A stretch of DNA of 58,956 nt from Candidatus Sericytochromatia bacterium (GTDB lineage Bacteria; Cyanobacteriota; Sericytochromatia; S15B-MN24; JAQBPE01). The translations under genes were made by a program, and so were the position numbers. How positions within the stretch are numbered: the stretch's first letter is position 1; every line of letters starts with the position of its first letter. The stretch is taken from assembly GCA_035285325.1 (NCBI GenBank), contig JAYKJB010000075.1:1-58956 (forward strand), given 5' to 3'. This document shows positions 4,165 to 57,505 of the stretch, one piece after another. The notes below the pieces were generated by a model. The model was not told the DNA's origin, made no database searches, and saw nothing but the letters and a program-made list of their open reading frames with translations.

Positions 4165-5643
4165 TCAGCGGAACCTCACCCTCAGGCGGTGCCACCACGC
4201 CCTCCAGCCAGGGACAGGGGCCGGCTCGGCCTGTTGAGCCGCCTGGGCAATTGCCCCGGACCAGGAGGACTCCGCCCGCAGCAGCTCGCCCAGGCTCGCC
4301 AGCGGCAGATCCTCCTGCAGGGCCAGGGCCAGTTCCTGGATCAGTTCAGCGGCGGGCTCTCCCACCACCGTGGCCCCCAGCAAGTGCCCCTCAGGCGAGG
4401 CGAGCAGGCGCACCAGTCCGGGCGAGCCGCCCAGCGCGCCGGGTGGCGGCATCAAGGGCGCCTGGTGAACCCGATAGGGCGTCTGAGTCGCCACCAGTTC
4501 GGCCTCCTTGCGCCCCACGGAGGCCAGCGGGGGATCCGTGAACACCACCAGCGGCAACAGGGAGGAATGAAAGCGGGCCGCGCCCGGCTGGATCGCATGG
4601 GCCACGGCGCGCTGCGCCTGCACCAGCAGGGCCTGGGTGGCAGACACGTGGCCGATCTGTTCCCCCAGGGCATACACGCCGGGCAGACTGGTGCGAAAGG
4701 TTTCATCGACCGTGATGAAACCGCGGGCATCACGCACCAGGCCACCGGACTCGGGCTGACGCGCCAGCGCGCCGGGCACGCGACCACAGGCGATCAGCAG
4801 CGTGTCGTAGGGCAAGGCCGCGCGCTCCCCGTCCAGCCCACTGATGGCGAGCACCCGCTCCCCCTCGGCGTGGCGAACGGCGACCGGCTTGGAGGCGAAG
4901 CGAATATCGACCCCGGCGTCGCGCAAGGCTTGCTCCAGCAAGGCCGCGGCATCAGGCTCCTCCTGGGGAAGGAGACCGGAAAAGGGCTCCACCAGGACCA
5001 CGCGCGTCCCCAGACGGGCAAACGTCTGGGCCAGTTCACTGGCCACCGGACTGCCCCCCACCACCACCAGCCGCCTGGGCAGACGTTCCAGGCGCTGGGG
5101 CAAGTTGTCCGGCGTGAGATAGCCATCCGGCTGCAGCCCTTCGATGGCCGGCACCAGCGGGGCGGTGGCCCCGGCCAGCAGCAGGGCGGGGGCGCGCAGC
5201 AGGCGCTCTCCCAGCCGTAACGTGGTCGGTTCCTGCCAGACCAGCGAAGCGCCGAGCAGACGCTCGCCAGGGGCCTCCAGCTCGGCCACGGGGGGCGGCC
5301 AGACCCCCAGCCGGGCCAGCAGCGCCTGAAGCGAGGCCCAGGCGATCACGGAAGGCAGGGCCAGGCCCTCCAGCCCCTCCAGCCGGCGAGCCCGCTGGAG
5401 CAAGGTGGCCACCTGCGCCATGGCCCGACCGAAGCGTTCCCCCTGGGCACGATCCGGCAAGGCCGCCTCGGCCTCGTGATCGACCCAGGCCACCCGCACG
5501 CCACGCCGCGAGGCCTCCCGCACCGCCTCGCGAGCGCCAGGGCCGCTGCCCAGCACGATCAGTCCAAATTCGTCGGCGTCCAACCCGATGACCCTATCAC
5601 TCCCTGCGCCTGTCCGGCCGCAGACTTTCCCTATTTTACGCAC
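4165..5643 (-). CDS. Flavoprotein of the pyridine nucleotide-disulfide reductase fold lacking the redox active site
   Basis: The protein has the architecture of dihydrolipoamide dehydrogenase or mercuric reductase: N-terminal FAD fold (LGSGPG, residues 31-36), a second dinucleotide fold (LVVVGGSPVASELA), the conserved IACGRVPG and VYALGEQIG segments, and the C-terminal dimerisation domain (VVFTDPPLASVGRKE). The family redox cysteines (C-x4-C), which should follow the first FAD motif, are absent; the only cysteines are Cys8 and the one in IACGR. The C-terminal His-Glu pair (normally HAHPTLSE-like) is replaced by LRAESSWSG, and the FAD-contacting Asp of the GD motif is Glu. It is therefore probably a flavin-binding protein without disulfide reductase activity. 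The start is GTG 5643 with no strong ribosome binding site. Confidence 0.8.
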   Translation of the reverse strand: MRKIGKVCGRTGAGSDRVIGLDADEFGLIVLGSGPGAREAVREASRRGVRVAWVDHEAEAALPDRAQGERFGRAMAQVATLLQRARRLEGLEGLALPSVIAWASLQALLARLGVWPPPVAELEAPGERLLGASLVWQEPTTLRLGERLLRAPALLLAGATAPLVPAIEGLQPDGYLTPDNLPQRLERLPRRLVVVGGSPVASELAQTFARLGTRVVLVEPFSGLLPQEEPDAAALLEQALRDAGVDIRFASKPVAVRHAEGERVLAISGLDGERAALPYDTLLIACGRVPGALARQPESGGLVRDARGFITVDETFRTSLPGVYALGEQIGHVSATQALLVQAQRAVAHAIQPGAARFHSSLLPLVVFTDPPLASVGRKEAELVATQTPYRVHQAPLMPPPGALGGSPGLVRLLASPEGHLLGATVVGEPAAELIQELALALQEDLPLASLGELLRAESSWSGAIAQAAQQAEPAPVPGWRAWWHRLRVRFR

Positions 5644-5749
5644 AGTTCACCACGGCGCCGTGACGACCACGGCCCGCGCTCGGACGCCTTTACCTGATGA
5701 CGCCGGCGGGCTAGCATGGAACCCGACGCGCCCCTGCTGAGGTGATGGT

Positions 5750-6553
5750 TTGGATCGACGCCTGAATCTGGTCCCCTGGCGCCCCCCCGCCACGCCCCGG
5801 ATCGTGCTCGCCAGCGGGCTCGCCACCTACGTGGTGGCCGCCTGTGCCGCCGCGCCGGCCCTGCCTGGCCCGCCGGAGGGGCCACCCACCGCCAGCGGGC
5901 CCCCGATCGGCCTCCCCGGGGTCCTGCCGACACCGCCCACGCCCCCACCGGGGGGTCGACTGGTGGGTGATTTCTCCGCCGCTGGTTGGCGCAGCTGGGA
6001 GAACGTGACGTACTTTCCCTGGAGCCCCAAGAACGACTACCGGCGACTCGACACGCCGGACGGCCCCCTGATTCACGTGGTCAGTCAGGATGCCGCCTCG
6101 ATGCTGGTCCGTCGCGTCGAGATCGACCTGACCAAAGAACCGATCGCCACCTGGCGCTGGCGCATCGCGGCCCCGATCGCCGGGGGCGACGAACGCAAGC
6201 GCGAGACCGACGACTGCGCGGCCCGGGTGTACTTCGTCTGGGGCCTGAAGGACCGCAAGGACATCTTTTCTGCCAAAGGGCTGGCCTACGTCTGGGGCCA
6301 GACCCGCCGAGTCGGTGACATCGGGGGCTCCCCCTTCACCGACCAGATCGCGGTCATGGCGTTGCGCAGCGGATCCGCCGGCGCGGGCGCCTGGCAGACC
6401 GAGCGACGCGACCTGGAGGCGGATTACCGCGCCTACTTCAAAGCACCGCCTCCCGGCCCGATCACGGCGATCGCCCTGCTGACCGACACCGACCACACGG
6501 CCAGCCAGGCCTCGGCCTGGTACGCCCCGATCCGGGTGCTGGCCCGCCCCTGA
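5750..6553 (+). CDS. DUF3047 family lipoprotein
   Basis: The start is TTG 5750 with GAGG at 5739-5742; an ATG at 5745 lies in another frame that stops after six codons. The N-terminus has a hydrophobic segment ending VVAAC, which fits a lipobox, followed by a Pro/Gly-rich linker of about 35 residues. The mature domain shows the DUF3047 pattern: a W-rich start (WSPKNDYRRL), TWRWRIAAP, the acidic RETDDCAARVYFVWG segment, AYVWG, and the ending DYRAYFKAPPPGPITAIALLTDTDHT. The function of the family is unknown to me; predicted fold is a beta sandwich like carbohydrate-binding modules. It is convergent with the decarboxylase gene. Confidence 0.8.
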   Translation: MDRRLNLVPWRPPATPRIVLASGLATYVVAACAAAPALPGPPEGPPTASGPPIGLPGVLPTPPTPPPGGRLVGDFSAAGWRSWENVTYFPWSPKNDYRRLDTPDGPLIHVVSQDAASMLVRRVEIDLTKEPIATWRWRIAAPIAGGDERKRETDDCAARVYFVWGLKDRKDIFSAKGLAYVWGQTRRVGDIGGSPFTDQIAVMALRSGSAGAGAWQTERRDLEADYRAYFKAPPPGPITAIALLTDTDHTASQASAWYAPIRVLARP

Positions 6554-6623
6554 GCGCGGCGCTCCGCTGGGCACGGATGGGCCGCGTGACCAAGGGCCAG
6601 ACGCCCCCCAGCAGGCGCCGCCC

Positions 6624-8552
6624 TCAGCCCTGCCACTCTCCGGAGCGCAGGTCGAGCCGTTCCTCGTCATCGGCAAAGCCCAGCGTCGCCTGCAGGGGGA
6701 ATTGCGCCCCGCCCGCTTCCTGCCAGCAACCGGCGAACCAGTCGATCAGATGCTTGCCCGCCAGCTCGTGGGCGTCCTCGAGGGCTTCTTTGAGGGCCAG
6801 GAAGCGCGGTTGCGCCAGCACCTCCGCCGGGACCACCTCGGCCAGCTCCGGCAACAGCGGCTCGCTGCCCGAAAAGGGAGCGTCCTCGTCGGGCCGTTCG
6901 GCAGAGACCAGCCAGCCGTCGGCGCCCAGGGTATACAGACGCAACCCCAGTTCCCCGGCCACGCCATAGGGATGACAGAGCTCGACATCGAGACGCTCGA
7001 CCGCCTCGTGGTAGCGGCGCCCGAGCACCTGGTCGCGCAGACAAGCCAGCATGGCCGGCCGCACGGCCGCCAGATGTTGCTCCACGACCCGCTGCCATTC
7101 GGCCTTCAGGTTGAGGGGCCCCGTCAGCGCGCGCACGGGCGCCACCACGTTGGACACCACCTCAGCCCCGGCCTCCCAGGCCTCCGGCGGGCTGGCGTAG
7201 CGCTCCACCCGCGCGTGCAGCCAGGGAATCACCAGCTCGTGTTCCGGCTTGATCAGACAGGCCCGCAAGACCAGCAGTTCCTCCTGATCCCAGACCAGCT
7301 GCGGCGCGTGGGGCGCCACCAGCGCGCGCGGCAAGCGGGCCGTGGCCAGGTAGACCGGCTCGTGGGCGTCGCGCATGAGCAGCTGGAAGATCTGCTCGGT
7401 TTCCGTGCTGATCGCGCTGGCGGTCCAGCCGGCGCCGGTCGGAAAAAAGGCCACGATGTCGAGGTCGGGCGGCATCACCAGCTGCAGGTGGGGACTCGCC
7501 TCGATCAGGCCGGCCCAGGCCAGCGCGGCGCGCCGGCAGGCCTTCAGCACGGGGCCGAGGCCGTGGTTGGGCGCGAGCGGAAAGCAACGCAGGGTGGTCC
7601 AGAGCGCGGCGGCGGCCGCTCCGGCCCGGGAGCATTCCAGGCTGATCTCGCCCAGGTGCCGCGCGGCCGCGGTGAAATAGGCGTAGGGGGCCTCGTGGGC
7701 GTAAAAGCGCGCCACCTGAGGGTCGCGAAAGATCACGCAGCCGCAGCCATAAGGCTGCAAGCCGTGCTTGTGCGGATCGATCACCACGCTGTCGGCCTGG
7801 GCGATCGCCGCCCACGGCGCGGGGTCGAGGATCGGCGGCTCGGTCTCGGACAGCAACTTGAAAAACCCGCCGTAAGCCGCATCCACGTGAACGCGAACGC
7901 CATTTTCACGCGCCCAGGCCACCACCGCGTCGATCGGGTCGATCGCGCCCAGGGCGGTGGTGCCCGCCGTGACCACCACCGTGCCCAGGGGCTCGCGGGC
8001 ATGGGCCTGGGCCAGCGCCGCCAGATCCAGCCGCCCCCAGCGGTCAACCGGAATCTCGACCATGCGGAGGCCCAACAGGGCCCCCAGGCGCGCGTGGGTG
8101 TAATGGGCCTGCGCCCCGTAGGCCACGGCGCGTTCCGGATGCATCCGGCGAGCGACCCAGAGGGCCTCCAGATTGGCCATCGTGCCGCCGCCCGTCAGGT
8201 GGCCCAGGTGGCTTTCAAAGCCCAGCATGGTCGCGAGGGCCGCCACCACTTCTTCTTCCAGCGCCGCGGTGGCCGGCCCGCCGTCCAGGGCGTGGTTGTT
8301 GGGGTTGATCTGCATGGCCATGGCATAGGCCAGCATGGCCACCGGGTGCGGCGGCTTGAGCATCTGTCCGGCATAGGCCGGATGATGAAAGGGATAATTG
8401 TCGGTCAGACGATCGGCCAGGGCGGCCAGCGCCTCGTCGATCGCCTCGTCCGACAGGGCCAGGCTCGCCGCCGTCGGAAACGGCGCCCAGCGCTCCTGCC
8501 AGCGGGCCACCGCCGCCAGGCCACGTTCGAGATGGGGCAAATGGTCACGCAT
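6624..8552 (-). CDS. PLP-dependent group II amino acid decarboxylase
   Basis: Cytoplasmic pyridoxal-phosphate enzyme of the glutamate/aromatic amino acid/diaminobutyrate decarboxylase fold. The PLP lysine is in VIDPHKHGLQPYG. The cofactor-contacting aspartate region is VRVHVDAAYGGFF, preceded by VVTAGTTALGAIDP. The N-terminal part has the typical GGTMANLEAL segment and the HPAYAGQML substrate-entry region. At 642 residues it is longer than typical members (450-550), with a C-terminal extension of about 150 residues (from about 490) that I do not recognise. Start ATG 8552 follows AAGGAG. The substrate cannot be read from sequence; neighbours give no pathway. Confidence 0.85.
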   Translation of the reverse strand: MRDHLPHLERGLAAVARWQERWAPFPTAASLALSDEAIDEALAALADRLTDNYPFHHPAYAGQMLKPPHPVAMLAYAMAMQINPNNHALDGGPATAALEEEVVAALATMLGFESHLGHLTGGGTMANLEALWVARRMHPERAVAYGAQAHYTHARLGALLGLRMVEIPVDRWGRLDLAALAQAHAREPLGTVVVTAGTTALGAIDPIDAVVAWARENGVRVHVDAAYGGFFKLLSETEPPILDPAPWAAIAQADSVVIDPHKHGLQPYGCGCVIFRDPQVARFYAHEAPYAYFTAAARHLGEISLECSRAGAAAAALWTTLRCFPLAPNHGLGPVLKACRRAALAWAGLIEASPHLQLVMPPDLDIVAFFPTGAGWTASAISTETEQIFQLLMRDAHEPVYLATARLPRALVAPHAPQLVWDQEELLVLRACLIKPEHELVIPWLHARVERYASPPEAWEAGAEVVSNVVAPVRALTGPLNLKAEWQRVVEQHLAAVRPAMLACLRDQVLGRRYHEAVERLDVELCHPYGVAGELGLRLYTLGADGWLVSAERPDEDAPFSGSEPLLPELAEVVPAEVLAQPRFLALKEALEDAHELAGKHLIDWFAGCWQEAGGAQFPLQATLGFADDEERLDLRSGEWQG

Positions 8553-8676
8553 ATCGGGCTCCTTGGCCGCTCTCGGCCACCCTCCGTTTCTACCCGGCCA
8601 ACCGTGGGGCTCACCGGTCCGGGCCTCGGCTCACGGACCTCGCCTGAAACGAAACGGGCGAGTGTGACCCCGCCGT

Positions 8677-11600
8677 TCAGAAATAGGTGCCCATATCGAA
8701 GTACAGCGTGGGGGTCGGGGACACCCCACCCAGCCCGGGCAACACCCCCTGAGCGACCCCGAAACGCGCCACCCCACTGGAATCGTTGAAGGCATTCAGC
8801 CCGGGCCAGGCCATGCGCCAGACGGTCGCGATCGGGTTGGTGTTGAGCGGGTTGTTGCTGATCTTGAAATTCAGGCGAAATTCGGCCCCAAGGCCGAGCC
8901 GCAGGGCCTCGGAGGTGGGCCAGCGCGACGCCCCCTGGCTGGGCGCCGCACCGGGCAAGGTAGCCCAGTCGGCATTCCAGGCCAGACCGGCATCGCTGAA
9001 GACCGCCGCGCCCAGACGTTCGGCAAACAGCGGCAAGGTTCCTGCGCCGTGCTGCAGTTCAAGCAGCGGAAAGCGATATTCGGCCGAGGCCAGGGCCGCG
9101 ACATTGCCGTTGACGGAGGCCAGCGGATAGCCACGCAGCCCGATCAGCACATCGTCGGGATCCGCCGCCACGCGGATGTCCGGTGAACCGTTCGGATTGA
9201 CGGGACGGGTTCCGCCCAGAAAGAAGTCGCCCTGCGGCTTGCCCAGATTGAGGCCCCCCAGCCCCCGAAAGGCAAGCACGTGGTGGGTCAGCGGCAGCGG
9301 GACAAAACGACGATAGTCGAGGAAGCCCTTGTAGTAGTCGACCTCCGAACCGAGCCAGGGATGAGCCACCTCGAGACCCGCCGAACCCAGCGAGCCATAC
9401 TCGGGCGAGACCGAGTAGCCGAAGCGCCCGTTGTCGTTGAAGCGGTAGACGTAGCTGAGGCTGTGGGCACGGCCGGCCGGAGGCAGGACGCGGGCTTGCT
9501 TCAGCGGCGCCGCCAGCGCCTCGGGAGTGAGGTCCTGAATCAGCCGCACGTTCAGGTTGAGGGCATGCACGTCCCCGGTCTGGTAACTGGCATTGGTGAG
9601 GGGGGACGGCAGGTTGTTCCAGCCCAGGCCCAGGCTGAGGTTGGCAAAGCGCTGGAACGGCGTCAGGACCGAGCCATCCCGCAGCGGGACCGAGTAGCGC
9701 ATCGGATACCAGTTGGCGAAGGCATTCACGTTGGTGTCGTACTGGGTGTTCTGGTAAAGAAAGGTGCCCAGGGTGCGGTCGAACAGCGAGAACCCCTGGA
9801 AGGTGTTGGTATCCGGGTCCAGATAGCCATCACCCTGCAGGCTCCAACCCGCATGCGCGAAGAACAGGTTGGTGATCAGCACGTCGTAGCCCAACGTGAA
9901 GGCCCCGATCGAGGCCGGCGTGGCCTGGTAAAGCGGCAGCCAGAACTTGGGCAGCAGGGACGGCCAGGGGCTGTACGGCGAGCTCGGATAGGTCTCCCGC
10001 TGGCGGTGGACGTAGGGAACCACGCTCGGATCGGCCGTCGGGTGCGGCACCGGGCGCCAGCTGTCCGGCGTGAAGGGCAGGGTGTGAATGTCGAAGCCCA
10101 GGCCGCGACAGTAGGCCATGGCGATTTCCTGTCCATCAGGACGGATGGCGGGCTCGCAGACGCCGGTCAGGACGTTGGTGACCTGCCACAGGTTGCGCGC
10201 TTGCCAGTCGTAGGCAAACAGGTTGAAGACCCCGCCCTCACGGTCCGACGCGAACACGATGTAGCGGCCATCGGGCGTCCAGACCGGTCCAATGTCGACG
10301 GCGTCATCCTTCCAGAGCGGCGCGGCTTGCCCCGTGGCGGTGTCGAGCAGGAACAGGTCGCGGGAGCTGCCGCGCCAGGCGGAAAAGACCGCGTGGCGAT
10401 CGTCCGGGCTCCAGCGCGGTGCGGTGATCTGGGTGTGGTCCTGCAACTGGGTGAGCCGCCGCAGCAGCTTGCCCTCTCGGTCGAGCAAGACCAGATCGTT
10501 CTGTCCCTTGCCGTTCTGCACAGCCAGAATGCGGGTTCCGTCGCGGCTCAGCCCCGGCTGTCCGAGGCGGGCGAACTGCGTCAGGTTCTTGCGCTCGCCC
10601 GTCACGAAGTCATGGAGGAAGACGTCCTCGAAACTGCTGTAGTTGTTGCGGCCGTGGCTGTCGGAGAAGAGCATGGCCCGACCGTCCGGCGTCAGGTCGT
10701 AACATCCGACGTGGCTCTTGCGCGCCAGCGGCACGAGTTGCGGCTGCCCATCCCGAATGCCCACCCGCTCCTTGAGCATGGCCGGGCCGTGGCGCAGGCC
10801 TTCCACGAAAATCAGGTGCCCGTTCGGCAGATAGGCCGGATGGCGGTGGTGCATGCCGGAGGTCGTGACGGCCGTGGTGAGCGTGACCGGACGCCGGCGG
10901 ATCGCGGCGATCTGGGCCCTGGCGCGGCGCTTGATCCAGTGGATCGTCTCATCCCAGATCTGCTGCGCGTCTCGCCCCCCGAGCACCCTGGCCACGGCCG
11001 CGTCGATGCCGAGCCAGGGCGCCTCCCCGTAGGCGCGCGCGATCGCCGCGGGCTTGTCCGCGCCATAGCGCTGCACGATGTACTTGTAGAAGAAGGTGCC
11101 ATAGACGTAAGGGGCATCCCCTCCCGGAAAGTCGGTCATGTGGTAGGTAGCGGCCTGGTCGATGGTCAGCAGGCGCCCTTCCAGCACGTCCCCCCGCAGG
11201 TACATGTCGAAGTAGCCGTCGTTGCCGCGTCCGCCGCGGCCCTGGTTGGTGAACATCGACTCGGTCGTGACGGCCAGCCCTTCGATCAGGAAGGTGGGCT
11301 GGAACAGGTTGGGAAACAGAAAGCGCCCGAAGATCCGGTTGAGCGCGGCCGTGGGGCCGCTGACCGTCTCGAAATGGAGCGCGTGGGTGTACTCGTGGGT
11401 GATCACGAGCTTGAGCCAGTCGTCGTAGCGGCCCCACATGAAATCCGCATCGGGGGCGGTCAGGTACACGTACATGGCACTGGTCACGTAGGGCAGGGCC
11501 AGGCCATTGACCGTGTCCTCGTGATCGAACAGGGTCAGTTCCGTCTTTTGCAGGGGCTGGGTGCCGAAGTAGGCCGAGACACGGTCATGGGCCTCCTCCG

Positions 11601-11826
11601 CGAACTGGGCGGCCTTCTGGGCGATCGCCTCGTAGCCCTCCGGGTAGTGGACGTGGAAGTGCGGCGTGTCCAGGGTGTGCATGCGGATGTTGGGGTCGAG
11701 CGTGGCCGCCTGCCCCGGCGCGGCCAGCCAGGCGGCCCAGCCCAGGACCAGGCCGGCGAACCCGTTCAGCAGGCGCTGGGGCGCCCCGGCTCCGAATCTT
11801 TGCGTGCGTCTCGATGACCATCCCAC
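8677..11826 (-). CDS. Metallopeptidase-TolB propeller-Omp85-like barrel fusion protein, copy 1
   Basis: A 1049-residue exported protein with three parts. After a signal peptide (cleavage near PGQA-AT, residue 40) comes a gluzincin-type peptidase domain: H144-E-Y-T-H148, with the third zinc ligand likely E182 in FLIEGLAV, 34 residues after H148. Residues about 320-620 form a TolB-like beta-propeller with repeated SPDGR/PDGRYIVFASD motifs. The last 400 residues look like an outer-membrane barrel: the Omp85 hallmark L-R-G-Y at about 897-900, then EYRFPL and VFSDAGLAWN, and a final strand ending in Phe. This suggests a surface or periplasmic peptidase anchored by its own barrel. The start is GTG 11826 with a weak ribosome binding site. 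A paralogue lies at 14126-17047. The Omp85 assignment is by motif only. Confidence 0.8.
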   Translation of the reverse strand: MGWSSRRTQRFGAGAPQRLLNGFAGLVLGWAAWLAAPGQAATLDPNIRMHTLDTPHFHVHYPEGYEAIAQKAAQFAEEAHDRVSAYFGTQPLQKTELTLFDHEDTVNGLALPYVTSAMYVYLTAPDADFMWGRYDDWLKLVITHEYTHALHFETVSGPTAALNRIFGRFLFPNLFQPTFLIEGLAVTTESMFTNQGRGGRGNDGYFDMYLRGDVLEGRLLTIDQAATYHMTDFPGGDAPYVYGTFFYKYIVQRYGADKPAAIARAYGEAPWLGIDAAVARVLGGRDAQQIWDETIHWIKRRARAQIAAIRRRPVTLTTAVTTSGMHHRHPAYLPNGHLIFVEGLRHGPAMLKERVGIRDGQPQLVPLARKSHVGCYDLTPDGRAMLFSDSHGRNNYSSFEDVFLHDFVTGERKNLTQFARLGQPGLSRDGTRILAVQNGKGQNDLVLLDREGKLLRRLTQLQDHTQITAPRWSPDDRHAVFSAWRGSSRDLFLLDTATGQAAPLWKDDAVDIGPVWTPDGRYIVFASDREGGVFNLFAYDWQARNLWQVTNVLTGVCEPAIRPDGQEIAMAYCRGLGFDIHTLPFTPDSWRPVPHPTADPSVVPYVHRQRETYPSSPYSPWPSLLPKFWLPLYQATPASIGAFTLGYDVLITNLFFAHAGWSLQGDGYLDPDTNTFQGFSLFDRTLGTFLYQNTQYDTNVNAFANWYPMRYSVPLRDGSVLTPFQRFANLSLGLGWNNLPSPLTNASYQTGDVHALNLNVRLIQDLTPEALAAPLKQARVLPPAGRAHSLSYVYRFNDNGRFGYSVSPEYGSLGSAGLEVAHPWLGSEVDYYKGFLDYRRFVPLPLTHHVLAFRGLGGLNLGKPQGDFFLGGTRPVNPNGSPDIRVAADPDDVLIGLRGYPLASVNGNVAALASAEYRFPLLELQHGAGTLPLFAERLGAAVFSDAGLAWNADWATLPGAAPSQGASRWPTSEALRLGLGAEFRLNFKISNNPLNTNPIATVWRMAWPGLNAFNDSSGVARFGVAQGVLPGLGGVSPTPTLYFDMGTYF

Positions 11827-11936
11827 ATCCCCATGTTGCCCACCCGGCGGGGCCGCTTACCAGCTCGCCTGGAGGAACCTCGCACTGTCGTTTGGTTTAC
11901 ATTCCTTCACAAAAGACCTACCATGACCTCAGGACC

Positions 11937-14018
11937 ATGCGACAAGACAGAGAAGGCAAAACAAGCCACCTCTTGCGCTGCGGGGCTGTTGCGATCGCCT
12001 ACCTGGCGCTGGCGGCAGTCGGCAACAGTCTGGCGCTGCCGAGCAACCCGATTGCCGGCATCTGGCTACCGGCCGGCCTGTCCCTGGCGGCGGTGCTGCG
12101 TTTCGGCGTGGGCATCTGGCCGGCCATCATGGTCGCGGCCACCCTCGACGCCCTCCACTACATGGGCGGGGGCACGCCCGACGCGATGGGCTGGCCGACT
12201 CGCCTGGGGGCAAGCCTGGTGGTGGGCACGGGCGCCACCTTGCAGGCCCTGCTGGGTGCCTGGATGGTCCGCCGACGGGGCTTTCGCCCCCAGCTCGCTC
12301 GTGTCGAGGACGTCTTTTCGCTGCTGGTGCTGGGCGGGTTGGTGGCCTGCACCGTGAACGCCTCACTGGGAACGGCCATGCTCACCTGGGCAGGCTCGGA
12401 GGCGGCCGCCGACTGGCAACAAAACTGGCTGAACTGGTGGCTTTCGGACACCGTGGGCGTCATGACGATCGCGCCCCTATGCTTCCTTTTCTCGTTGCCT
12501 CAACACCGCTTGGAGGACACGAGCCTGGCCGAACGAGCGCTGTGGGGGGTGGGCATGGTCGCCGTGGCCACGATCAATGTCGAGCCGGGCGCCCCCTTGC
12601 CGTTTCTGTTCGTGCCCCTGCTGGTGTGGGCGCCGCTGCGCCTGGGCCCGCGCGTGACCGTGACGGCGCTGGCCACGCTGGCCGTCTTCGCCGTCTTTGC
12701 CACCCACTTTGGCATGGGCCCCTTCGTCAAGCCCACGCGCATGGAATCGCTGTTGTTGCTGCACCGCTTCCTGGCCTCGATCTGCCTGCCGACCCTGGTG
12801 CTGATGGCGGCCCTGTCCTCGCGCCAGCGCATCGAGGATGAGCTGCGCGCCGCCTCGTCGCTGCTTGGCAGCGTGGTCGACAACATTCCCGACCTGGTCT
12901 TTCTCAAGGAGGCACCCTCGCTGCGCTACGCCCTGGTCAATCGGGCACTCACCCAGATCGCCCAGCGCCCGCGGGAGCTCTGGCTCGGCCGAAGCGATGC
13001 GGACCTGTTCCAGGCGCCGGAGGTGGAAGCTTGGCAGGCCACGGACCGCCAGACGCTGGAAAATCGCCAGCTGGTCGAGCTGCCCCAAGAGACCTGGCAG
13101 ACCCCGACCGGGGCGCGTCATTTCCGCACCAAGAAGGTGCCCGTGCTGGACGCGAACGGACACGTGACCCACCTGCTCGGCATCTCCTCCGACATCACCG
13201 AGTTGAAGGCGGCGGAGGCCCACATCCAGGCCCTGAATGCCCAGCTGGCCGCGCAGGTGGAGCATCTGCGCACCGCCAACATGCGCCTGCGGGAACTCGA
13301 TACCCTGAAAAGCAATTTCGTCAGTTCGGTCTCACACGAGCTGCGCACTCCACTGACCTCGATCAAGGGCTATGCCGAATTCCTCGAAGACGGTCTGGCG
13401 GGGGCCTTGACGCCGGAACAGCAGGCCTTTTTGAGTCAGATCCAGAGCAGCACCACGCGCCTGGAGCGGCTGGTCGACGACCTGCTCGATTTCGCGCGCA
13501 TGGACGCCGGCACCTTCAGCCTGCGGCTGGACACCGTCGACCTGCGCCACACGCTGGCACGCGCGGCCGAGAGCCTGCAGCCGCTGATCGGCGAGGCCCG
13601 CCTGAGCCTGGAAACGCAGGCACCTGATACTCCGCTGCTGGTCCGCATGGACGCCCAGCGCATCGAGCAGGTGCTGATCAACCTGCTCAACAACGCCGTC
13701 AAGTTCACCCCGCCCGGCGGGAAGATCCGGATCGAACTCCGGCAAGAGAATACCCAGGCCCGCTGCGAGGTCTCCGACACCGGCCCCGGAGTGGCCGAGG
13801 CCGATCTGCCGCGCCTGTTCCGTCGCTTCAGTCAGATCGATGGACGCGGCATCGGCACCGGGCTGGGCCTCAGCATCAGCCAGGCCCTGGTGGTGGCGCA
13901 CGGGGGCGAGATGGGGGTGCGCAGCGAGCTGGGTCAGGGCTCGACCTTCTGGTTCAACCTGCCCCTGGCCGGCCCGTCCCTCCCGCCAGAACCCAGCCCG
14001 CACGGGGGCGACGCCTGA
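11937..14018 (+). CDS. MASE1-PAS sensor histidine kinase
   Basis: A 693-residue membrane histidine kinase. The N-terminal third is a MASE1-type sensor of about eight membrane helices (NPIAGIWLPAGLSLA near the start is the typical signature). A PAS domain follows (LLGSVVDNIPDLVFLKE to GISSDITE), then a short coiled coil, the HisKA domain with the phosphoacceptor H467 in SVSHELRTPL, and the ATPase domain with N box (NLLNNAVKFTP), G1 (DTGPGV) and G2 (GTGLGLSISQAL). Start ATG 11937 has only a short-spaced CAGGA; the frame stays open back to 11814. No response regulator is adjacent. It is divergent from one peptidase-barrel gene and convergent with the other, so regulation of them is possible but unproven. 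Confidence 0.88.
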   Translation: MRQDREGKTSHLLRCGAVAIAYLALAAVGNSLALPSNPIAGIWLPAGLSLAAVLRFGVGIWPAIMVAATLDALHYMGGGTPDAMGWPTRLGASLVVGTGATLQALLGAWMVRRRGFRPQLARVEDVFSLLVLGGLVACTVNASLGTAMLTWAGSEAAADWQQNWLNWWLSDTVGVMTIAPLCFLFSLPQHRLEDTSLAERALWGVGMVAVATINVEPGAPLPFLFVPLLVWAPLRLGPRVTVTALATLAVFAVFATHFGMGPFVKPTRMESLLLLHRFLASICLPTLVLMAALSSRQRIEDELRAASSLLGSVVDNIPDLVFLKEAPSLRYALVNRALTQIAQRPRELWLGRSDADLFQAPEVEAWQATDRQTLENRQLVELPQETWQTPTGARHFRTKKVPVLDANGHVTHLLGISSDITELKAAEAHIQALNAQLAAQVEHLRTANMRLRELDTLKSNFVSSVSHELRTPLTSIKGYAEFLEDGLAGALTPEQQAFLSQIQSSTTRLERLVDDLLDFARMDAGTFSLRLDTVDLRHTLARAAESLQPLIGEARLSLETQAPDTPLLVRMDAQRIEQVLINLLNNAVKFTPPGGKIRIELRQENTQARCEVSDTGPGVAEADLPRLFRRFSQIDGRGIGTGLGLSISQALVVAHGGEMGVRSELGQGSTFWFNLPLAGPSLPPEPSPHGGDA

Positions 14019-14125
14019 GCGAGCCCGTCCCGGCCTGCCCCCCACGCACGCCGCGGGGGCGCCCCACACGCTCACCCGGGGGAGCAGCACGCCCGCGCTT
14101 CCGGCGCCGGCGGTTGCCCCGCCGC

Positions 14126-17047
14126 TCAGAAATACGAACCGAGCTCGGCGTAGGCCGTCGGCCAGAGCAGCCCACTGCCCGGATTGACCAGGCCCTGGCC
14201 GACGCCCAGCCGCAGTTCGGTGGGCGCCTGCTGCACGTGGGTCTGCGCGCGCAACTCGAAGCCGGTGTCCAGCAAGCTGCGGCGCCAATCGAATGGCCCG
14301 CCCCAGGCCTGCCCGGCCTCCAGGAAGGCCGCCCCGTGCAGGTTGCGCAAGAATAACGGGAACACGCCGACGCCCCGCTGCACCGCCAGCAACGGGAAAC
14401 GCCATTCGACCGACAGCGAGGCGGCGTTGGGCCCGCGCTGGGTGGCGAAGCCATAGCCGCGCAGCGGCACGCCCCGGGTGCCCACGCCGCTGGCCGTGCG
14501 CAGATCCACGTTCGACAGCAAGGTGGCCGAATCCGCGCCGCCCAGGAAGAAGTCGCCCGCCTCGCGGCTGCCGCCATTGCTGCCGACGGACAGGCGGGTG
14601 GCCAGGACGTGATGGGTCCAGGGCAGCGGCGTGTAGCGTCGCCAGTCGAGCCAGATGCGATCGAAGGCGTAGGCCGAGCCCAGGGCAGGCACGGCCTTCT
14701 CGTAACCGAGCGTGGCCAGGTTGCCGCCCTCCGGACTCACGGAATAGGCAAACTTGTAGTTGTCGGCGAAGCGATAGGTGAGCGAGAGCGTGTTGGTCTG
14801 CCCCGTGCGCGGCCGGATCTCGGCCGGCAAACCCAGCGCGGCCACCTCGCTGATATCGCTCAGATGCTGCGCATTGAAGGCGAAGGTCAGCGTATCACCG
14901 GTGGCCCACTGGTTCTGAAGGAAGATGCTGGGCAGGCCCGGGAAGGTGGCCGACACCCCTTGATACTGCCCCCGCTGGACCACCTGATGGGCCTTGCCCT
15001 CATGGACCGGGGCGGAGATCAAGGTGCTGTCGGTCGCAAACACCGAGAGGCTCGGGAAGAAGACCTCGTTGCTGTAACTCAGGGAATAGAACGGCCGCCC
15101 CGACAGCAGCCCCAGGCCCACCGCGCCGAAGGCGAAGTGCTGCATCAGCACGTCCTGGCCGAAGGTCTGAAAGCCCCAAACGGGGCCCCGCTCGTCGAGA
15201 AAGCCGAAGGGCGCCCAGGTCTTGGGGCGAAAGCTGGGCCAGGCGTCATAGGGCACCAGCGGGAACGCCGCCGCCTCGACCTGCGGGGCAGGCTGCCGGG
15301 GAGGGGGCTCGGCCGGGCGCGGGCGTGGCAACGCCTGTAAGCGGGCGGGCTCGAACGGCAGGGTGACGATGTCCCAGCCCGGCAGGCTGTAACTGGCCGC
15401 CGCGATCGTCTTGCCATCCGGGCTCACGACCGGCTCGATCAGGCCTCCGAGCACGTTGCTGAGGCGCAACAGGCGCCCCGTGCGCATGTCGTGGGCATAC
15501 AGGTTGAACACCCCGTCGCGGTCCGAGGAAAAGACCAGGTAGCGCCCATCCGGGCTCCAGGCGGGGTCCTGATCGACCGCGCGATCGCGCCACAGTGGCC
15601 GCATCCGCCCGCTGGACGGGTCGACCAGGTACAGATCGCGCCCGCCGTCCCGCCAGGCGGAGACCGCGATCAGATCCCGGCGCGGATGCCAGGCCGGCGA
15701 AGAAAACTGGGAGCGGTCGTTCAGGCGCACCAGGTCCTGGCGGCGCGTGCCGTCGCTGCGCAGCTTCACCAGGGCGGTCTGGCCGCCGCCGTTCTGCACC
15801 GCCACCAGCCAACGCCCATCCGGGCTGACGGTCGGCATGTCGAGCCGCGCCCGGGTCGAGAGACGCTCCAGCTTCTTCTGCTTCACATCGAAGCGGAACA
15901 GATCCTCATAGCCGGTGAAACGGTTGTCGTCCCAGTTGCGGGCGTGATACAGCCAGTGACCATCAGGCGAGGGCTCCCAGCTGCCGAACGGGCTCTTGCT
16001 CATCAGGCGTCGGGGCTTGGCCGCCGCCTCCCGCCGCATGACCTGGGCGAAGCCGTGCCCGCTCCATTCGGCCCAGGTCAGCGCACCATCGGGCAGGAAG
16101 CGTGGATGGCGGTGGTGCATGCCGCCCTCCGTCACCGCCGTGAGGGGCGTGAGCGGGCCGCGCGCGAGGATCGCCTGGCGCTCGGCCAGGGCCTCGGCCG
16201 TCAGGGATTGCTGAAGTTCGGCCCAGAGCGCCTGGCTGTCCTTGCCCGTGAGCGTCTTCAGCTCGTCGTCGAGCCCCCAGGTGCCCACGAAGGGGTTGGC
16301 GGCGTGGGCATGGGCGAGCCGCGCCGGGGCATCGGCCCCGTAGCGTTCGGCCAGGTGGCGGTAAAAGGCGGCGCCATACACGTAGGGCAACTCGCCCCCC
16401 GGGTGGTCGATCGTGAAATAGCCGCAGGCCTGGTCGATGCCCACCAGCTTGCCCGCCAGGGCGGCCTGGCGCAGGTACATGCGGTAGGCGCTGTCGCGCC
16501 CTCGCCCGCCGCTCGACCAGCGCGTCTCGGTGTGTACGGCCAGTCCTTCGATCAGGAAGATCGGCTGGATCATGTTGGGGAAGTAGCTGCGGCCGAAGAC
16601 CCGGTTGACCAGAGCCGCCAGGCCTTCGGTCTTTTCCATGTGCAGCACATGGGTGTACTCGTGCAGCAACAGGTCGCGCAGCCAGCTGTCGTAGCGACTC
16701 ATGAGCTGGTCGCTGGGCGGGCTGCTCAGGTAGATGAAGATCTGGTTGTTGGGCAGCGGAAAGCCGAAGCCGTTGGTGGTGTCTTCCGAATCGAGCAGCG
16801 TCAACTCGGTGCGCTGGGCCGGCTCCGAACGCAGGTAAGGCGCCAGCAGCTGGTGGGCCTCCTCGGCGTAGCCCGCGGCCAGGCGGGCGATCGCCATGTG
16901 CTCGGCCGGAAAGTTCACGCGGAAATGCGGCGTGACGATGGTCTGCCACTGGATGGACGGATCGAAGATGGTGGCCGCGCGCGCCTGGGAAGGGACCAGA
17001 AGCAGACTCACAGCCAGGGCAGAGAGGCAGGAAGCAAGGCGTGGCAC
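14126..17047 (-). CDS. Metallopeptidase-TolB propeller-Omp85-like barrel fusion protein, copy 2
   Basis: A 973-residue paralogue of the protein at 8677-11826 with the same three parts. The signal peptide ends near ARA-AT (residue 24). The peptidase site is H129-E-Y-T-H133 with E167 in FLIEGLAV, the same 34-residue spacing as copy 1. The propeller carries SPDGRWLVAV, SPDGRYLVFSSD and SPDGKTIAAA repeats. A Pro-rich linker precedes the barrel, which holds L-R-G-Y (about 862-865), EWRFPL and AAFLEAGQAW and ends SYF. Start is GTG 17047 with a G-rich stretch upstream. The copies are clearly homologous along their whole length but much diverged, so the duplication is old. All zinc ligands are intact in both. 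Confidence 0.8.
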   Translation of the reverse strand: MPRLASCLSALAVSLLLVPSQARAATIFDPSIQWQTIVTPHFRVNFPAEHMAIARLAAGYAEEAHQLLAPYLRSEPAQRTELTLLDSEDTTNGFGFPLPNNQIFIYLSSPPSDQLMSRYDSWLRDLLLHEYTHVLHMEKTEGLAALVNRVFGRSYFPNMIQPIFLIEGLAVHTETRWSSGGRGRDSAYRMYLRQAALAGKLVGIDQACGYFTIDHPGGELPYVYGAAFYRHLAERYGADAPARLAHAHAANPFVGTWGLDDELKTLTGKDSQALWAELQQSLTAEALAERQAILARGPLTPLTAVTEGGMHHRHPRFLPDGALTWAEWSGHGFAQVMRREAAAKPRRLMSKSPFGSWEPSPDGHWLYHARNWDDNRFTGYEDLFRFDVKQKKLERLSTRARLDMPTVSPDGRWLVAVQNGGGQTALVKLRSDGTRRQDLVRLNDRSQFSSPAWHPRRDLIAVSAWRDGGRDLYLVDPSSGRMRPLWRDRAVDQDPAWSPDGRYLVFSSDRDGVFNLYAHDMRTGRLLRLSNVLGGLIEPVVSPDGKTIAAASYSLPGWDIVTLPFEPARLQALPRPRPAEPPPRQPAPQVEAAAFPLVPYDAWPSFRPKTWAPFGFLDERGPVWGFQTFGQDVLMQHFAFGAVGLGLLSGRPFYSLSYSNEVFFPSLSVFATDSTLISAPVHEGKAHQVVQRGQYQGVSATFPGLPSIFLQNQWATGDTLTFAFNAQHLSDISEVAALGLPAEIRPRTGQTNTLSLTYRFADNYKFAYSVSPEGGNLATLGYEKAVPALGSAYAFDRIWLDWRRYTPLPWTHHVLATRLSVGSNGGSREAGDFFLGGADSATLLSNVDLRTASGVGTRGVPLRGYGFATQRGPNAASLSVEWRFPLLAVQRGVGVFPLFLRNLHGAAFLEAGQAWGGPFDWRRSLLDTGFELRAQTHVQQAPTELRLGVGQGLVNPGSGLLWPTAYAELGSYF

Positions 17048-17175: not shown

Positions 17176-17886
17176 TCAGCGCCAGCCGACGTGGCCCGTC
17201 ACGGCAATCGTGCCGACGGTCAGGCCCGTGGCGGGAGCGACCGTCACGTTGGCCAGGTTGAAGTCCACGTGGGCCGTGGAACTGGGCGACAGACGAGCAC
17301 CCAGCATGATCGGCGCCGCGATCGCCCCGCCGGTCATGGCATACGACGGCATGATGGTTCCCAGCACGCTCCAGGCGGGCGAGACGGGATACTGCACGCC
17401 CACGTCGGCCCCGACCGTGGCATTGTTCATCGGGTTCAACAGTGCCGGGGCGCGGAAGTTGGGCGATACCGAGACCATCGCCGAGCCCATGTCCCAGGTG
17501 AGAGGCACGGCCACGCCCAGGCCACCCACCGCCATGGCCGCACCAATGCCGTTCAACGCGGTGTTGACCGCCACGGAAGCCGCCATGCTGCCCATCCGAG
17601 ACAGCGGGTACTTGTAGGCGCCGGCCAGGTTGATGCCGGTCCCGAGACCGCCCGCGAGCGCGAAGGCGCCGCCCAGGCCGAGGCCGAGCTCACCACCGCC
17701 CATGGCCGTGGCGTAATTGATGGAATTGCCGGGGCCCGAGGCTGACACGTAGCTGACGCCCTTCGAGAGCACCGCGGCGGTGTTCTGGCCGAGGTACGAG
17801 GTGGGCGCATCTTGAGTGAAAGCCAGGGCAGGCGACGCGCTCAACACGGCGGCCGCGACAGCGAGAGCAGAAATCCGTCCGAACAT
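17176..17886 (-). CDS. Exported protein, possible small outer-membrane beta-barrel
   Basis: Start ATG 17886 has AAGGA at good distance; the frame is open 16 codons further but without a better site. The 236-residue product begins with a clean signal peptide (MFGRISALAVAAAVLSASPALA). The mature part is rich in Gly, Ala, Ser and Val, with alternating polar and hydrophobic residues and many G-x-G turns (GGGELGLGLGG, VGADVGVQYP, IMLGARLSPSSTAHVDFNL), and ends in a strand closing with GHVGWR. This suggests an 8- to 12-stranded barrel of the outer membrane. I do not recognise the family. The gene has its own terminator and stands as a single unit. Confidence 0.7.
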   Translation of the reverse strand: MFGRISALAVAAAVLSASPALAFTQDAPTSYLGQNTAAVLSKGVSYVSASGPGNSINYATAMGGGELGLGLGGAFALAGGLGTGINLAGAYKYPLSRMGSMAASVAVNTALNGIGAAMAVGGLGVAVPLTWDMGSAMVSVSPNFRAPALLNPMNNATVGADVGVQYPVSPAWSVLGTIMPSYAMTGGAIAAPIMLGARLSPSSTAHVDFNLANVTVAPATGLTVGTIAVTGHVGWR

Positions 17887-17935
17887 GGTGCTACCATCCT
17901 TTCTGTAGGTCACGCAACGAATCGGTGCACGCACC

Positions 17936-20130: not shown

Positions 20131-20161
20131 ATTATAGCAATCCGCTAACCATCCGCGGCAA
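20131..20161 (-). promoter_or_regulatory. Candidate sigma-70-type promoter for the phnD-like gene
   Basis: On the minus strand a perfect TATAAT (20136-20131) is preceded by TTGCCG (20161-20156) with a long 19-bp spacer. Transcription would begin about 45 nt before the GTG start. The -35 part lies in the 3' end of the upstream channel gene. Confidence 0.5.
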
Positions 20162-22133
20162 TCACGATGATCCGATCGGCGGGGCCGTAAACCGTGTCGT
20201 GCGCCTTGGGAGGGTTCAGCTCGATGCCCTCGAGGTGCAGGCGCCGCCGGAGCGACTGGGGGGCCGGCGGCAGCGGCGCGAGGTGGTGGCAGGGATCGAG
20301 CAGGCGATGCCCGATGGCCGTCTCATGGCGCGCCGCGGCGGCCGCCACGACCGTGTAGAAGTTGACGGGGCGCCCGATCGGGACATAGTCGGCGACCGGC
20401 TTCAGGTAGATTTCCATGCCGGCCGTATCGAGCAGGTCCGTGAAGACCGCGTTCAGGTGCTTGTTCTCGGAGACCTGGGCCAGCATCAGGCTGATCAGGG
20501 TGTGGCTCACGATGAAGTCATCCGCCCGCGTGACGCGAGCAAGATCGCGATTGCGCACATGCAGCATCTCGGAGACGATGTTGACCTTCGCCCCGGTGCG
20601 GTCCACCAGCGTGCGCAGGTAGAGCAGGGTTTCGAGCGTGCGGGCGTCGGCGTGATTCTGACCGAGCAGCTCCGTGTACCCCAGCACGATGATGTGCTGA
20701 TAGTTCCAGATATCGAGGGCTTCGAGCGTGGTGAAATCGGTGGTGTCGCCCCGCCAGTAACTCAGGCGCTGATGGCGGAGCAGCGGCCGCAGATCGGCGA
20801 TCTCGGGCGGATCCGGCAGGTCCGCGACCACGGTAATTTCCGAACCTTCCGCCACGTAGTAATCCATCTCGCGAATGATCGCGAGGGCACGGCGATTCCA
20901 ACCCAACAGCAGGGTGCGCCGGGTGCTCTCCACCCGCGCCGGGGGGGCCTTCACGATGGCGCTCGCATCGACCACGGGTTGGCCTGAGGGCGCCAGACTG
21001 GCCTGGTCGCGGGCAATCGCAAAGATCTCGTCCCCGGGGCCCAGCCGACTGTCGGGTGGCGGATTCAGGCTGATGCGGCCATCCTGATGGCGCCAGCCGA
21101 TCACGGCACAATGGGCATACGCTTGCTGGACTTCCTCGTAGGTCCGGCCGAGCCCGCCAGGAACCGCGGCCATGTAGATCTCGTCGCCGGCGAAGTCGAA
21201 GAGTTCCGTGTACACCAGGGAAAGACCGGACTGAAAGCAAGTTTGCACCGTCAGGCGCGTGACCACCTCACTGGAAAGAATCACCTCCAGTTCCTGGCCC
21301 CCCACCAGTTTGGCCACGTCGCGCTTCTTGGGGTCCTGCAACTCGGCCACGATGTGATAGGGACGCTCCGGCCGGTCCGGGGCGTGGACCAGGGCCAGAA
21401 TGGTTTTGAGCACCTGGGTGTCGGCATCGGCCGCCTCCGAAGACAGGATGATGATGGCGCGCGCGGCCTCCGGCGCGACGATGGCCAGGTCGTCGGGGTC
21501 GATCGGAGACCCCGTTCGACAGATCACGCGCATGTCCCCGAGTTTGGGAACCTTGGCCTTGATGTCGCATTCCATGGCGACCTTGTCCCGTTCGGCCAGA
21601 ATCACGATGCGGGGACGCTGGCGCCCCCGGTTGGCGATCGCCAGCTCGGAAATGATCGTGAACACCGCCGGCGACCAGCCCAGAATCAGGGTGTGGTCTT
21701 GCTCGACCACCAGGCTACGCCCCCGCCGTAACTCCTCGACCAGGGCCGACAGACCGGTGGTGAGCAGGCCGACCAGGGCCGACACCAGTAACAGGCCCGC
21801 GACCGTCACCAGCAGGGTCACGGCGCGATAGGGCCAGAGCGGTGGGTCGTTGCCCATGGTGCCCCCGTCGAAGAGGTGGGCCAGTGCCATCCAGAGGGCA
21901 TCCAGCCAGGCCACGCCGCCCGGCCGCCCGTCCGGGCGCATCCCGAGACTCACCATGACCGCAACGGCCAACCCCACGATGGCGGCCATCAACAGCCCCA
22001 GCACCCCGACCTGGGCCCCCAAGCCCAGGCCGAGCAGGCGGTCGAGGGCATAGCGAAGGCGGGCCCGCACAGGGATGGAACGTGAACGAGGGGGCACGGG
22101 GTTCAATCTCGCAGCAGGTGAGCGACGGCCCAT
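20145..22133 (-). CDS. CASTOR/POLLUX-family ion channel with two RCK/TrkA-N-like domains
   Basis: A 662-residue membrane channel related to plant CASTOR and POLLUX/DMI1, which are ligand-gated cation channels. Two strong N-terminal helices (VGVLGLLMAAIVGLAVAVMV; VTLLVTVAGLLLVSALVGLL) flank a pore loop (WMALAHLFDGGTMGNDP). A first nucleotide-binding RCK domain begins HTLILGWSPAVFTIISEL, then the CASTOR/POLLUX middle domain (VQTCFQSGLSLVYTELFDFAGDEIYM), and a second RCK begins TLLLGWNRRALAIIREMD. The indicated ATG at 22133 overlaps a TATAAT (22137-22132), so translation may instead begin at TTG 22103 or GTG 22097. Ion selectivity cannot be inferred from this filter. The gene stands alone. Confidence 0.87.
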   Translation of the reverse strand: MGRRSPAARLNPVPPRSRSIPVRARLRYALDRLLGLGLGAQVGVLGLLMAAIVGLAVAVMVSLGMRPDGRPGGVAWLDALWMALAHLFDGGTMGNDPPLWPYRAVTLLVTVAGLLLVSALVGLLTTGLSALVEELRRGRSLVVEQDHTLILGWSPAVFTIISELAIANRGRQRPRIVILAERDKVAMECDIKAKVPKLGDMRVICRTGSPIDPDDLAIVAPEAARAIIILSSEAADADTQVLKTILALVHAPDRPERPYHIVAELQDPKKRDVAKLVGGQELEVILSSEVVTRLTVQTCFQSGLSLVYTELFDFAGDEIYMAAVPGGLGRTYEEVQQAYAHCAVIGWRHQDGRISLNPPPDSRLGPGDEIFAIARDQASLAPSGQPVVDASAIVKAPPARVESTRRTLLLGWNRRALAIIREMDYYVAEGSEITVVADLPDPPEIADLRPLLRHQRLSYWRGDTTDFTTLEALDIWNYQHIIVLGYTELLGQNHADARTLETLLYLRTLVDRTGAKVNIVSEMLHVRNRDLARVTRADDFIVSHTLISLMLAQVSENKHLNAVFTDLLDTAGMEIYLKPVADYVPIGRPVNFYTVVAAAAARHETAIGHRLLDPCHHLAPLPPAPQSLRRRLHLEGIELNPPKAHDTVYGPADRIIVIAADG

Positions 22134-56362: not shown

Positions 56363-57505
56363 TCAGAGCTTCTCGGCGCGGATCGCGGCCTTGATCGCCT
56401 CGATGCGCTTGCGGGTGGGGGGGTAACCGTTGTCGAGGTAGATCTTGTCGGCCATCGGCTTGGGGTCGAGCTTGTTGAGGAATTCGGCACCCGCCTGCGG
56501 ATCGAAGCCGGCCCGCGCGGCAAAGCGGACTCCATCGCGGTCGGCGCGCGTTTCCTGGATGCGACGCAGGATGATCTGCTCCTGTTTGACCGCCTCTTCG
56601 ACCCGGTCGCGCACGCTCTTCGGCACGCCCTCGCGACGGGCCCGCTCCTGCCAGTTCTGGAAGCGCTTCAGCGACAGGCGCGCCGCCGCGGCATCCCCGT
56701 GCACCTCGTGAGCCAGCTCGTGCCCCATGATGAAGGCCAGCTCGTCGTCGGTCTTGGCCAGCTTGAGGATCGAGTCGTGGACGCCGAACTGGCCACCGCC
56801 GGCCGAGAAGGCGTTGGGGGTCTGGCGCTGGAAGACGGTGTTCTCCAGCTTGTAGGGGCGCTCAGGCGCGACCTTGGCCAGACGGTCCATGATCGCCTGC
56901 ACCCGGGCATGATCGATGCCGGTCTGCTTGGAGACCCAGACCACGTCGCTGTAGCGGAAACGGCGCGTCTTCTGGAAGTTGGTGAGCAGTTCCGGCGCGT
57001 TTTCGAGCGTCGCCCAGACCTTGGTCATCACCTTGTAAGCTTCGATCAGCTGCTTGCCCTCGGTTGCGGCCGTGACCGCCGGGGTGGGCGAGGTCAGCAC
57101 CTGGGCCGCATCCTTGCGCAGCAACCGACCGATCGCCTTGCGGGTTTCCGCCTCGGGCGGCGTCTGGATGGTCTTCTCGATGCCGGCCAGCTGGCGCATC
57201 CAGTCGCTCTTGCCACGCGACCTGGAGAGCGTGTCGGCCAGCGCCCGCTCGGCCGGCGTGAGTTGCTTGGCCGTCTTGGTGATGGCCTGCTGGCGCACGA
57301 GCGAGGCCCGCTCCAGCATCGAGAGCGTCTTGACCTGCCCCTTCACGGCATTCGGCAGAGCATCCTGACCGAACGCCTCGCGGATCAGGCCCACCTCGGC
57401 CCGGGCCCCGGCCGTGACGCGCATCAGGTCTTTCTCGGCGCGGGCTTGCTGGTTGTGGAAGGCCAGGCGGGCAATCTTGGCCACACGATGCTTCACTGCG
57501 TTCAT
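56363..57505 (-). CDS. M48-family metallopeptidase
   Basis: Zinc peptidase of the M48 (HtpX/Ste24) clan. The catalytic motif is HELAHEVHGD (H-E-x-x-H), and the third ligand Glu lies in ETRADRDGVRFA. Unlike HtpX and BepA it has neither signal peptide nor membrane helices; the first 200 residues are basic and helical (MNAVKHRVAKIARLAFHNQQ), of unknown fold. ATG 57505 has GAGGAG; an upstream ATG at 57529 is less well placed. It lies next to the LmeA-like gene at 57634, and the two may be functionally linked, but they are separated by 128 nt with a likely promoter. Confidence 0.87.
   Translation of the reverse strand: MNAVKHRVAKIARLAFHNQQARAEKDLMRVTAGARAEVGLIREAFGQDALPNAVKGQVKTLSMLERASLVRQQAITKTAKQLTPAERALADTLSRSRGKSDWMRQLAGIEKTIQTPPEAETRKAIGRLLRKDAAQVLTSPTPAVTAATEGKQLIEAYKVMTKVWATLENAPELLTNFQKTRRFRYSDVVWVSKQTGIDHARVQAIMDRLAKVAPERPYKLENTVFQRQTPNAFSAGGGQFGVHDSILKLAKTDDELAFIMGHELAHEVHGDAAAARLSLKRFQNWQERARREGVPKSVRDRVEEAVKQEQIILRRIQETRADRDGVRFAARAGFDPQAGAEFLNKLDPKPMADKIYLDNGYPPTRKRIEAIKAAIRAEKL

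Follow-up and report, generated by a model that had tools for sequence, protein, structure and literature searches.

Two genes within the window, the 58,956-nucleotide stretch of Candidatus Sericytochromatia DNA analysed here, each encode a single polypeptide in which a zinc peptidase domain, a TolB-like propeller and an Omp85 barrel follow one another. By analogy with envelope proteins of known role, I propose, with a probability of about 0.5, that these two proteins, P1 and P2, are barrel-anchored zinc peptidases that would face the periplasm and serve the processing or quality control of outer-membrane proteins.

Domain layout and predicted folds

P1 and P2 (Table 1) are paralogues of about 1000 residues that can be aligned end to end, with 38% identity over the full length (613 bits in a pairwise alignment). 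Both start with a hydrophobic, signal-peptide-like segment and end in phenylalanine, and in both a glutamate lies 34 residues past the last histidine of HEYTH. HEYTH with this glutamate, and a chain that unites peptidase, TolB-like propeller and Omp85 barrel, had been proposed in the initial annotation from the bare sequence. Both are confirmed, the domains by Pfam, profile and fold comparisons. In Pfam searches, PD40 and Omp85 (PF01103) exceed their cut-offs in both proteins, the latter with 35.9 and 24.7 bits for P1 and P2 against a cut-off of 24. The L-R-G-Y sequence earlier read as an Omp85 mark occupies residues 897–900 of P1 and corresponds to the R-G-(F/Y) motif of Omp85 loop 6; its arginine and glycine are kept in 30 of 32 aligned family members. 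No POTRA domain was found in any Pfam scan of P1, P2 or the family, and about 35 residues separate the propeller from the barrel. On these sequence matches, P1 and P2 classify as Omp85 superfamily proteins devoid of POTRA domains, and domain searches did not place the chain as a whole in any single well-described family.

The peptidase domains of P1 and P2 reached no Pfam model and gave no match when used as single sequences in Pfam or PDB searches. Both stay below the cut-off of PF13485 (Peptidase_MA_2), a model which is matched by 15 of the 32 aligned members at E ≤ 0.1 (best value 3e-12) and whose cut-off is exceeded by loci of one clade of the family, clade B (see below), in 13 genomes. 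In fold and residues, P1 and P2 nevertheless agree with the matching members.

The fold was modelled for P1 with AlphaFold2, using the 32-row family alignment as input, and the N-terminal domain was also modelled separately. The model of the entire protein (pLDDT 83.4, pTM 0.85) comprises a largely helical N-terminal domain that also contains a small sheet, a propeller of six blades between residues 338 and 593, and 16 strands between residues 628 and 1047. Comparison of this model with the PDB by Foldseek matched TolB and BamA; the refuting outcome named in the initial annotation, a C-terminal part that is not a beta-barrel, thus did not occur. The isolated N-terminal domain (pLDDT 87.9) matched collagenases G, T and H (M9), M1 aminopeptidases, an M61 aminopeptidase and the M30 peptidase lugdulysin, with E values from 3e-05 to 1e-03; all of these are gluzincins. 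Used as a profile against PDB sequences, the domain gave only weak matches (E of at least 0.12), one of which, to the M1 peptidase 3cia, suggested which tyrosine is catalytic. The invariant Y-x-x-G of the family falls opposite Y-x-K-G of the M1 enzyme in this weak match, and Y240 is by this analogy probably the catalytic tyrosine.

That secreted collagenases are among the nearest folds of the N-terminal domain is a point in favour of a surface protease, whose barrel would move the peptidase and the propeller outside, where external protein would be degraded. This was one of two roles suggested in the initial annotation, and surface delivery was also the earlier proposal for PlpD, another Omp85 protein with an N-terminal enzyme domain. 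In canonical Omp85 barrels both ends are in the periplasm, and the N-terminal domains are periplasmic. This orientation weighs against a self-delivering surface protease, as does the fate of the PlpD proposal, which was overturned when the N-terminal domain of PlpD proved to be periplasmic (PMC11116518). Since about 550 residues of propeller and peptidase would in addition have to pass a 16-stranded barrel, I consider surface delivery unlikely.

Table 1. Positions of P1, P2, their parts and the two-component genes. Coordinates refer to the window, except in the last line, where they refer to the locus named.
Feature	Position	Strand	Basis and remarks
P1, peptidase-propeller-Omp85 protein	8677..11826	-	ORF of 1049 aa; Pfam PD40 and Omp85 above cut-off; AlphaFold2 model
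P1 predicted signal peptide, residues 1-40, cleavage near PGQA/ATL	11707..11826	-	By inspection of the sequence, and model helix 15-35; start codon uncertain
P1 gluzincin peptidase domain, residues 43-322	10861..11700	-	AlphaFold2 domain model and Foldseek
P1 zinc motif HEYTH (H144, E145, H148)	11383..11397	-	H-E-x-x-H in 32/32 members
P1 third zinc ligand E182 (EGxA)	11281..11283	-	Invariant in the alignment
P1 Y240-x-x-G243, likely catalytic Tyr	11098..11109	-	Invariant in 32/32; role by analogy with M1-type YxxG
P1 six-bladed TolB-like propeller, residues 330-600	10027..10839	-	PD40; model strands 338-593; TolB in PDB
P1 16-stranded Omp85 barrel, residues 612-1049, with L-R-G-Y and C-terminal Phe	8680..9993	-	PF01103 8e-09; model; BamA by profile and fold
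P2, peptidase-propeller-Omp85 protein	14126..17047	-	ORF of 973 aa; PD40 2.3e-16 and Omp85 2e-05, both above cut-off
P2 peptidase domain	16127..16966	-	Alignment with the family
P2 zinc motif HEYTH	16649..16663	-	Motif location
P2 TolB-like propeller	15302..16126	-	PD40 (Pfam)
P2 Omp85 barrel	14129..15268	-	Omp85 (Pfam)
Sensor kinase MASE1-PAS_4-HisKA-HATPase, 734 aa	11814..14018	+	Pfam; between P1 and P2, head-to-head with P1
Clade-B gene with regulator and kinase, window's genome	L048 (G000:C120:45000-62000), 5184-10477		Same arrangement in L035, L038, L051, L053, L056, L061 and L064

Conservation and distribution of the family

Searches of whole genomes of relatives yielded about 35 family members, and the alignment of 32 of them underlies the residue counts given here. 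PD40 is detected by Pfam in all 32 and Omp85 in 19 (E ≤ 0.1), and 29 end in phenylalanine. In the N-terminal domain, F57, E77, H144, E145, H148, P177, E182, G183, A185, R211, Y240 and G243 (P1 numbering) are invariant in all 32 sequences. The statement that the diverged copies keep all zinc ligands thus extends from P1 and P2 to every aligned member, and an invariant set made of H, E, H, a later E, an arginine and Tyr-x-x-Gly in 32 proteins is not due to chance. The same sequences bear on whether the architecture could be an artefact, caused by motifs read wrongly, a frame joined in error or a chimaeric assembly. The sequence is high in G+C and contains many spurious ORFs, and the draft genome consists of 138 contigs; however, the domain order recurs in about 35 homologues from independent assemblies and the models are confident, which already refutes this explanation and leaves it a negligible probability.

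Of the three domains, the peptidase has changed least between orthologues. Comparison with G001, the only other genome of the window's family-rank group, gives for P1 identities of 67.5% in the peptidase, 55.0% in the propeller and 54.0% in the barrel, and for P2 identities of 65.0%, 57.4% and 59.8%, respectively. This stronger constraint on the catalytic part argues for P1 and P2 being active enzymes. The peptidase domain might instead bind clients, with cleavage being secondary, in which case P1 and P2 would be chaperones or assembly factors. There is a parallel in BepA, which promotes assembly as well as degrading (PMC8423444), and barrel and propeller are conserved throughout the family; yet a binding role would not require that H, E, H, E and Y be kept without exception in all 32 members, and I regard a primarily non-catalytic role as unlikely.

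A profile of the N-terminal domain detected the family in 17 of the 18 genomes of the class; the 226 other genomes examined from the phylum all lacked it. In this sample the family is thus a marker of a single class within the cyanobacterial phylum. The closest named relative, at 57% identity, is in the metagenome-assembled genome 'Cyanobacteria bacterium RYN_339', and a search of plasmid records brought up only a relative that has no barrel. The family tree splits into two clades, both with good support. Clade B, with the zinc motif HE[LMF]xH, is single-copy across the class, while clade A, mostly with HE[YF]TH, is restricted in this sample to the window's order, where it is expanded, with up to three copies per genome. 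Four family members are present in the window's genome. G001 contains one orthologue of P1 and another of P2, which makes the duplication older than the split between the two genomes. At one locus of another genome of the order (L062, G006:C23, 6127-12356), two clade-A members lie head-to-head. A conserved gene is found beside several clade-A members (L037, L054, L058, L059, L062 and L065); at L065 it is a 389-aa frame with no Pfam match, and the frame after it carries four peptidoglycan-binding repeats.

Genomic context and two-component genes

The initial annotation described P1 and P2 as lying around a sensor kinase. The kinase does sit between them, but this arrangement is not conserved in the genomes sampled. 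The listed ATG of the kinase overlaps the listed start of P1 by 13 bases, which suggests that the true start of the kinase, of P1 or of both is further in. In G001, the nearest relative, this kinase is not beside the P1 orthologue, and the only neighbour shared with P1 is a PLP decarboxylase gene on the opposite side. No clear orthologue of the window kinase adjoining any family member elsewhere was found in the genomes sampled. Kinases are very numerous in these genomes, so that adjacency to P1 may be fortuitous. For want of an orthologous arrangement in relatives, the kinase was rejected as a part of the P1/P2 system; it is probably an orphan outside it.

Other genes of the window were recorded as well. 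Some 129 bases upstream of P2, and in the same orientation, lies a gene (17176-17934, minus strand) for a protein of 252 aa with a signal-peptide-like start; this protein has no Pfam or NCBIfam match and its gene was not seen beside the P2 orthologue in G001. Farther away are genes for a 662-aa Castor/Pollux-type ion channel protein (20145-22133, minus strand; PF06241, 2.7e-27), a DUF3047 protein (5750-6553, plus strand; PF11249, 7.2e-46), a metallophosphoesterase (48166-48867, plus strand) and an M48 peptidase (56387-56911, minus strand).

One might also suppose that P1 and P2 are translocation-and-processing devices, each barrel inserting or exporting one client that the peptidase matures as it passes, with the paralogues serving different clients. 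Omp85 barrels with the loop 6 R-G motif usually transport or assemble proteins, and this motif is kept here; the expansion and divergence of clade A, up to three copies in one genome, are also what such a device would lead one to expect. Set against this are the failure to detect a POTRA domain and the lack of a conserved client gene beside P1 or P2; apart from the PLP decarboxylase gene, P1 and its counterpart in G001 have no neighbour in common. I therefore hold translocation of dedicated clients to be a possible but rather doubtful function.

Clade B has a conserved association with a two-component system. Eight genomes of the order have clade B, and in every one of them its gene is head-to-head with a response regulator gene, which is followed by the gene for a membrane kinase. 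The gaps between the stop-bounded frames of the clade-B gene and the regulator are 46-269 bp, and the regulators are orthologous to one another at 448-508 bits. The regulator resembles YycF/WalR, MtrA, RpaB and PhoB, though it scores below every one of their cut-offs, and the kinase resembles PnpS and WalK. Outside the order, the regulator/kinase pair was beside clade B in none of the four testable genomes of other families. On the strength of these resemblances, the link would fit a control of clade B by the state of the envelope.

Proposed function and relation to known systems

Omp85 proteins assemble or export outer-membrane proteins. The preferred reading, a periplasm-facing peptidase anchored by its own barrel, builds on this setting and on the observed domain order, folds, catalytic residues, constraint on the peptidase and class-wide occurrence. 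P1 and P2 would be exported by the Sec system, as their predicted signal peptides suggest, and the barrel would then fold into the outer membrane. The periplasmic N-termini of Omp85 proteins, together with the location of the PlpD enzyme domain, make it most likely that peptidase and propeller lie under the barrel. Both would project from the barrel mouth into the periplasm. There the propeller would stand in for the POTRA array, offering substrates or partners in the envelope a place to dock, and outer-membrane or exported proteins would be trimmed or destroyed by the peptidase. A single chain would unite the roles of Escherichia coli BepA, of BamB/TolB and of a BamA-type barrel. The second role suggested in the initial annotation, that of a membrane-anchored quality-control device, thus stays the best reading, with a presumed location, activity and substrate class.

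Four observations count against it: the peptidase domains of P1 and P2 reach no Pfam model, the genome has seven M48 matches, the two-component link is confined to clade B and to one order, and the kinase beside P1 is not conserved. The M48 matches, none of which is in P1 or P2, mean that other BepA-like proteases may exist in the genome. In favour of the reading, the family is not the sole Omp85 of the genome, since two stronger matches to Omp85 are found elsewhere in it, in frames of 683 and 997 aa (159 and 145 bits). The TolB_N model, for its part, had no match in the window's genome or in any of 10 genomes of the order, an absence that would allow a TolB-like propeller to serve a different function. 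A more far-reaching and rather unlikely scheme is that the single-chain proteins do the TolB and BepA-like outer-membrane work of the class, the ancestral copy being under the divergent WalR/PhoB-like envelope-sensing pair while the expanded copies, P1 and P2 among them, would be specialised for different clients.

TolB is the best match of the P1 and P2 propeller by sequence and by fold, but the scores of 81 and 95 bits are far from the TIGR02800 equivalog cut-off of 343. BepA, a periplasmic zinc peptidase at the barrel-assembly machine that both promotes assembly and degrades barrel proteins (PMC8423444), provides the precedent for a zinc peptidase that handles such proteins beside an Omp85 barrel; it is a separate M48 protein, in contrast to P1 and P2, which carry their own barrel and have no PF01435 match. 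The closest topological precedent for an enzyme domain N-terminal to an Omp85 barrel is the patatin-like protein PlpD, whose enzyme domain had once been taken for a secreted one but proved to be confined to the periplasm (PMC11116518). PlpD has a lipase-type patatin domain and one POTRA domain, with neither propeller nor zinc site, whereas P1 and P2 match neither patatin nor POTRA models. Heinz and Lithgow (2014; PMC4104836) described a 'Metallo' subfamily with a 'metalloprotease' domain before the barrel, for which quality control was suggested. It was defined by PF00149, a Pfam model whose name is Metallophos; this model does not match P1 or P2, whose motif is HExxH. This published group is therefore not the same thing as P1 and P2, and a true peptidase-Omp85 fusion seems so far unrecognised.

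The nearest published relatives are the WD40-Omp85 proteins of the same paper, in which a TolB-like propeller N-terminal to an Omp85 barrel, of the non-POTRA type and with no function assigned, was likened to a BamA-BamB fusion (PMC4104836). In 2024 this branch was still termed not well characterised (PMC11116518). P1 and P2 share with it the propeller before the barrel, two of their three parts; the text of the paper mentions no peptidase, though some of the published members may carry one unrecognised (PMC4104836). The parts are separable, as illustrated by the best plasmid match, Salinibacter ruber WP_118831798.1, a protein of 633 aa in which a peptidase-like N-terminal domain (HELVH) precedes a PD40 propeller and no barrel follows. 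No description of a chain made of peptidase, propeller and Omp85 barrel was found in the open literature searched. The earlier view that no system of this form had been described must thus be narrowed: the propeller-Omp85 pair was already published, and it is the addition of a peptidase that goes unmentioned in the text of that paper (PMC4104836). Judged against that text, P1 and P2 are a variant of the published subfamily, in which the intact peptidase before the propeller-barrel pair is apparently new. The invariant zinc-peptidase site gives the WD40 branch, for which no assigned function was found, a concrete and testable activity.
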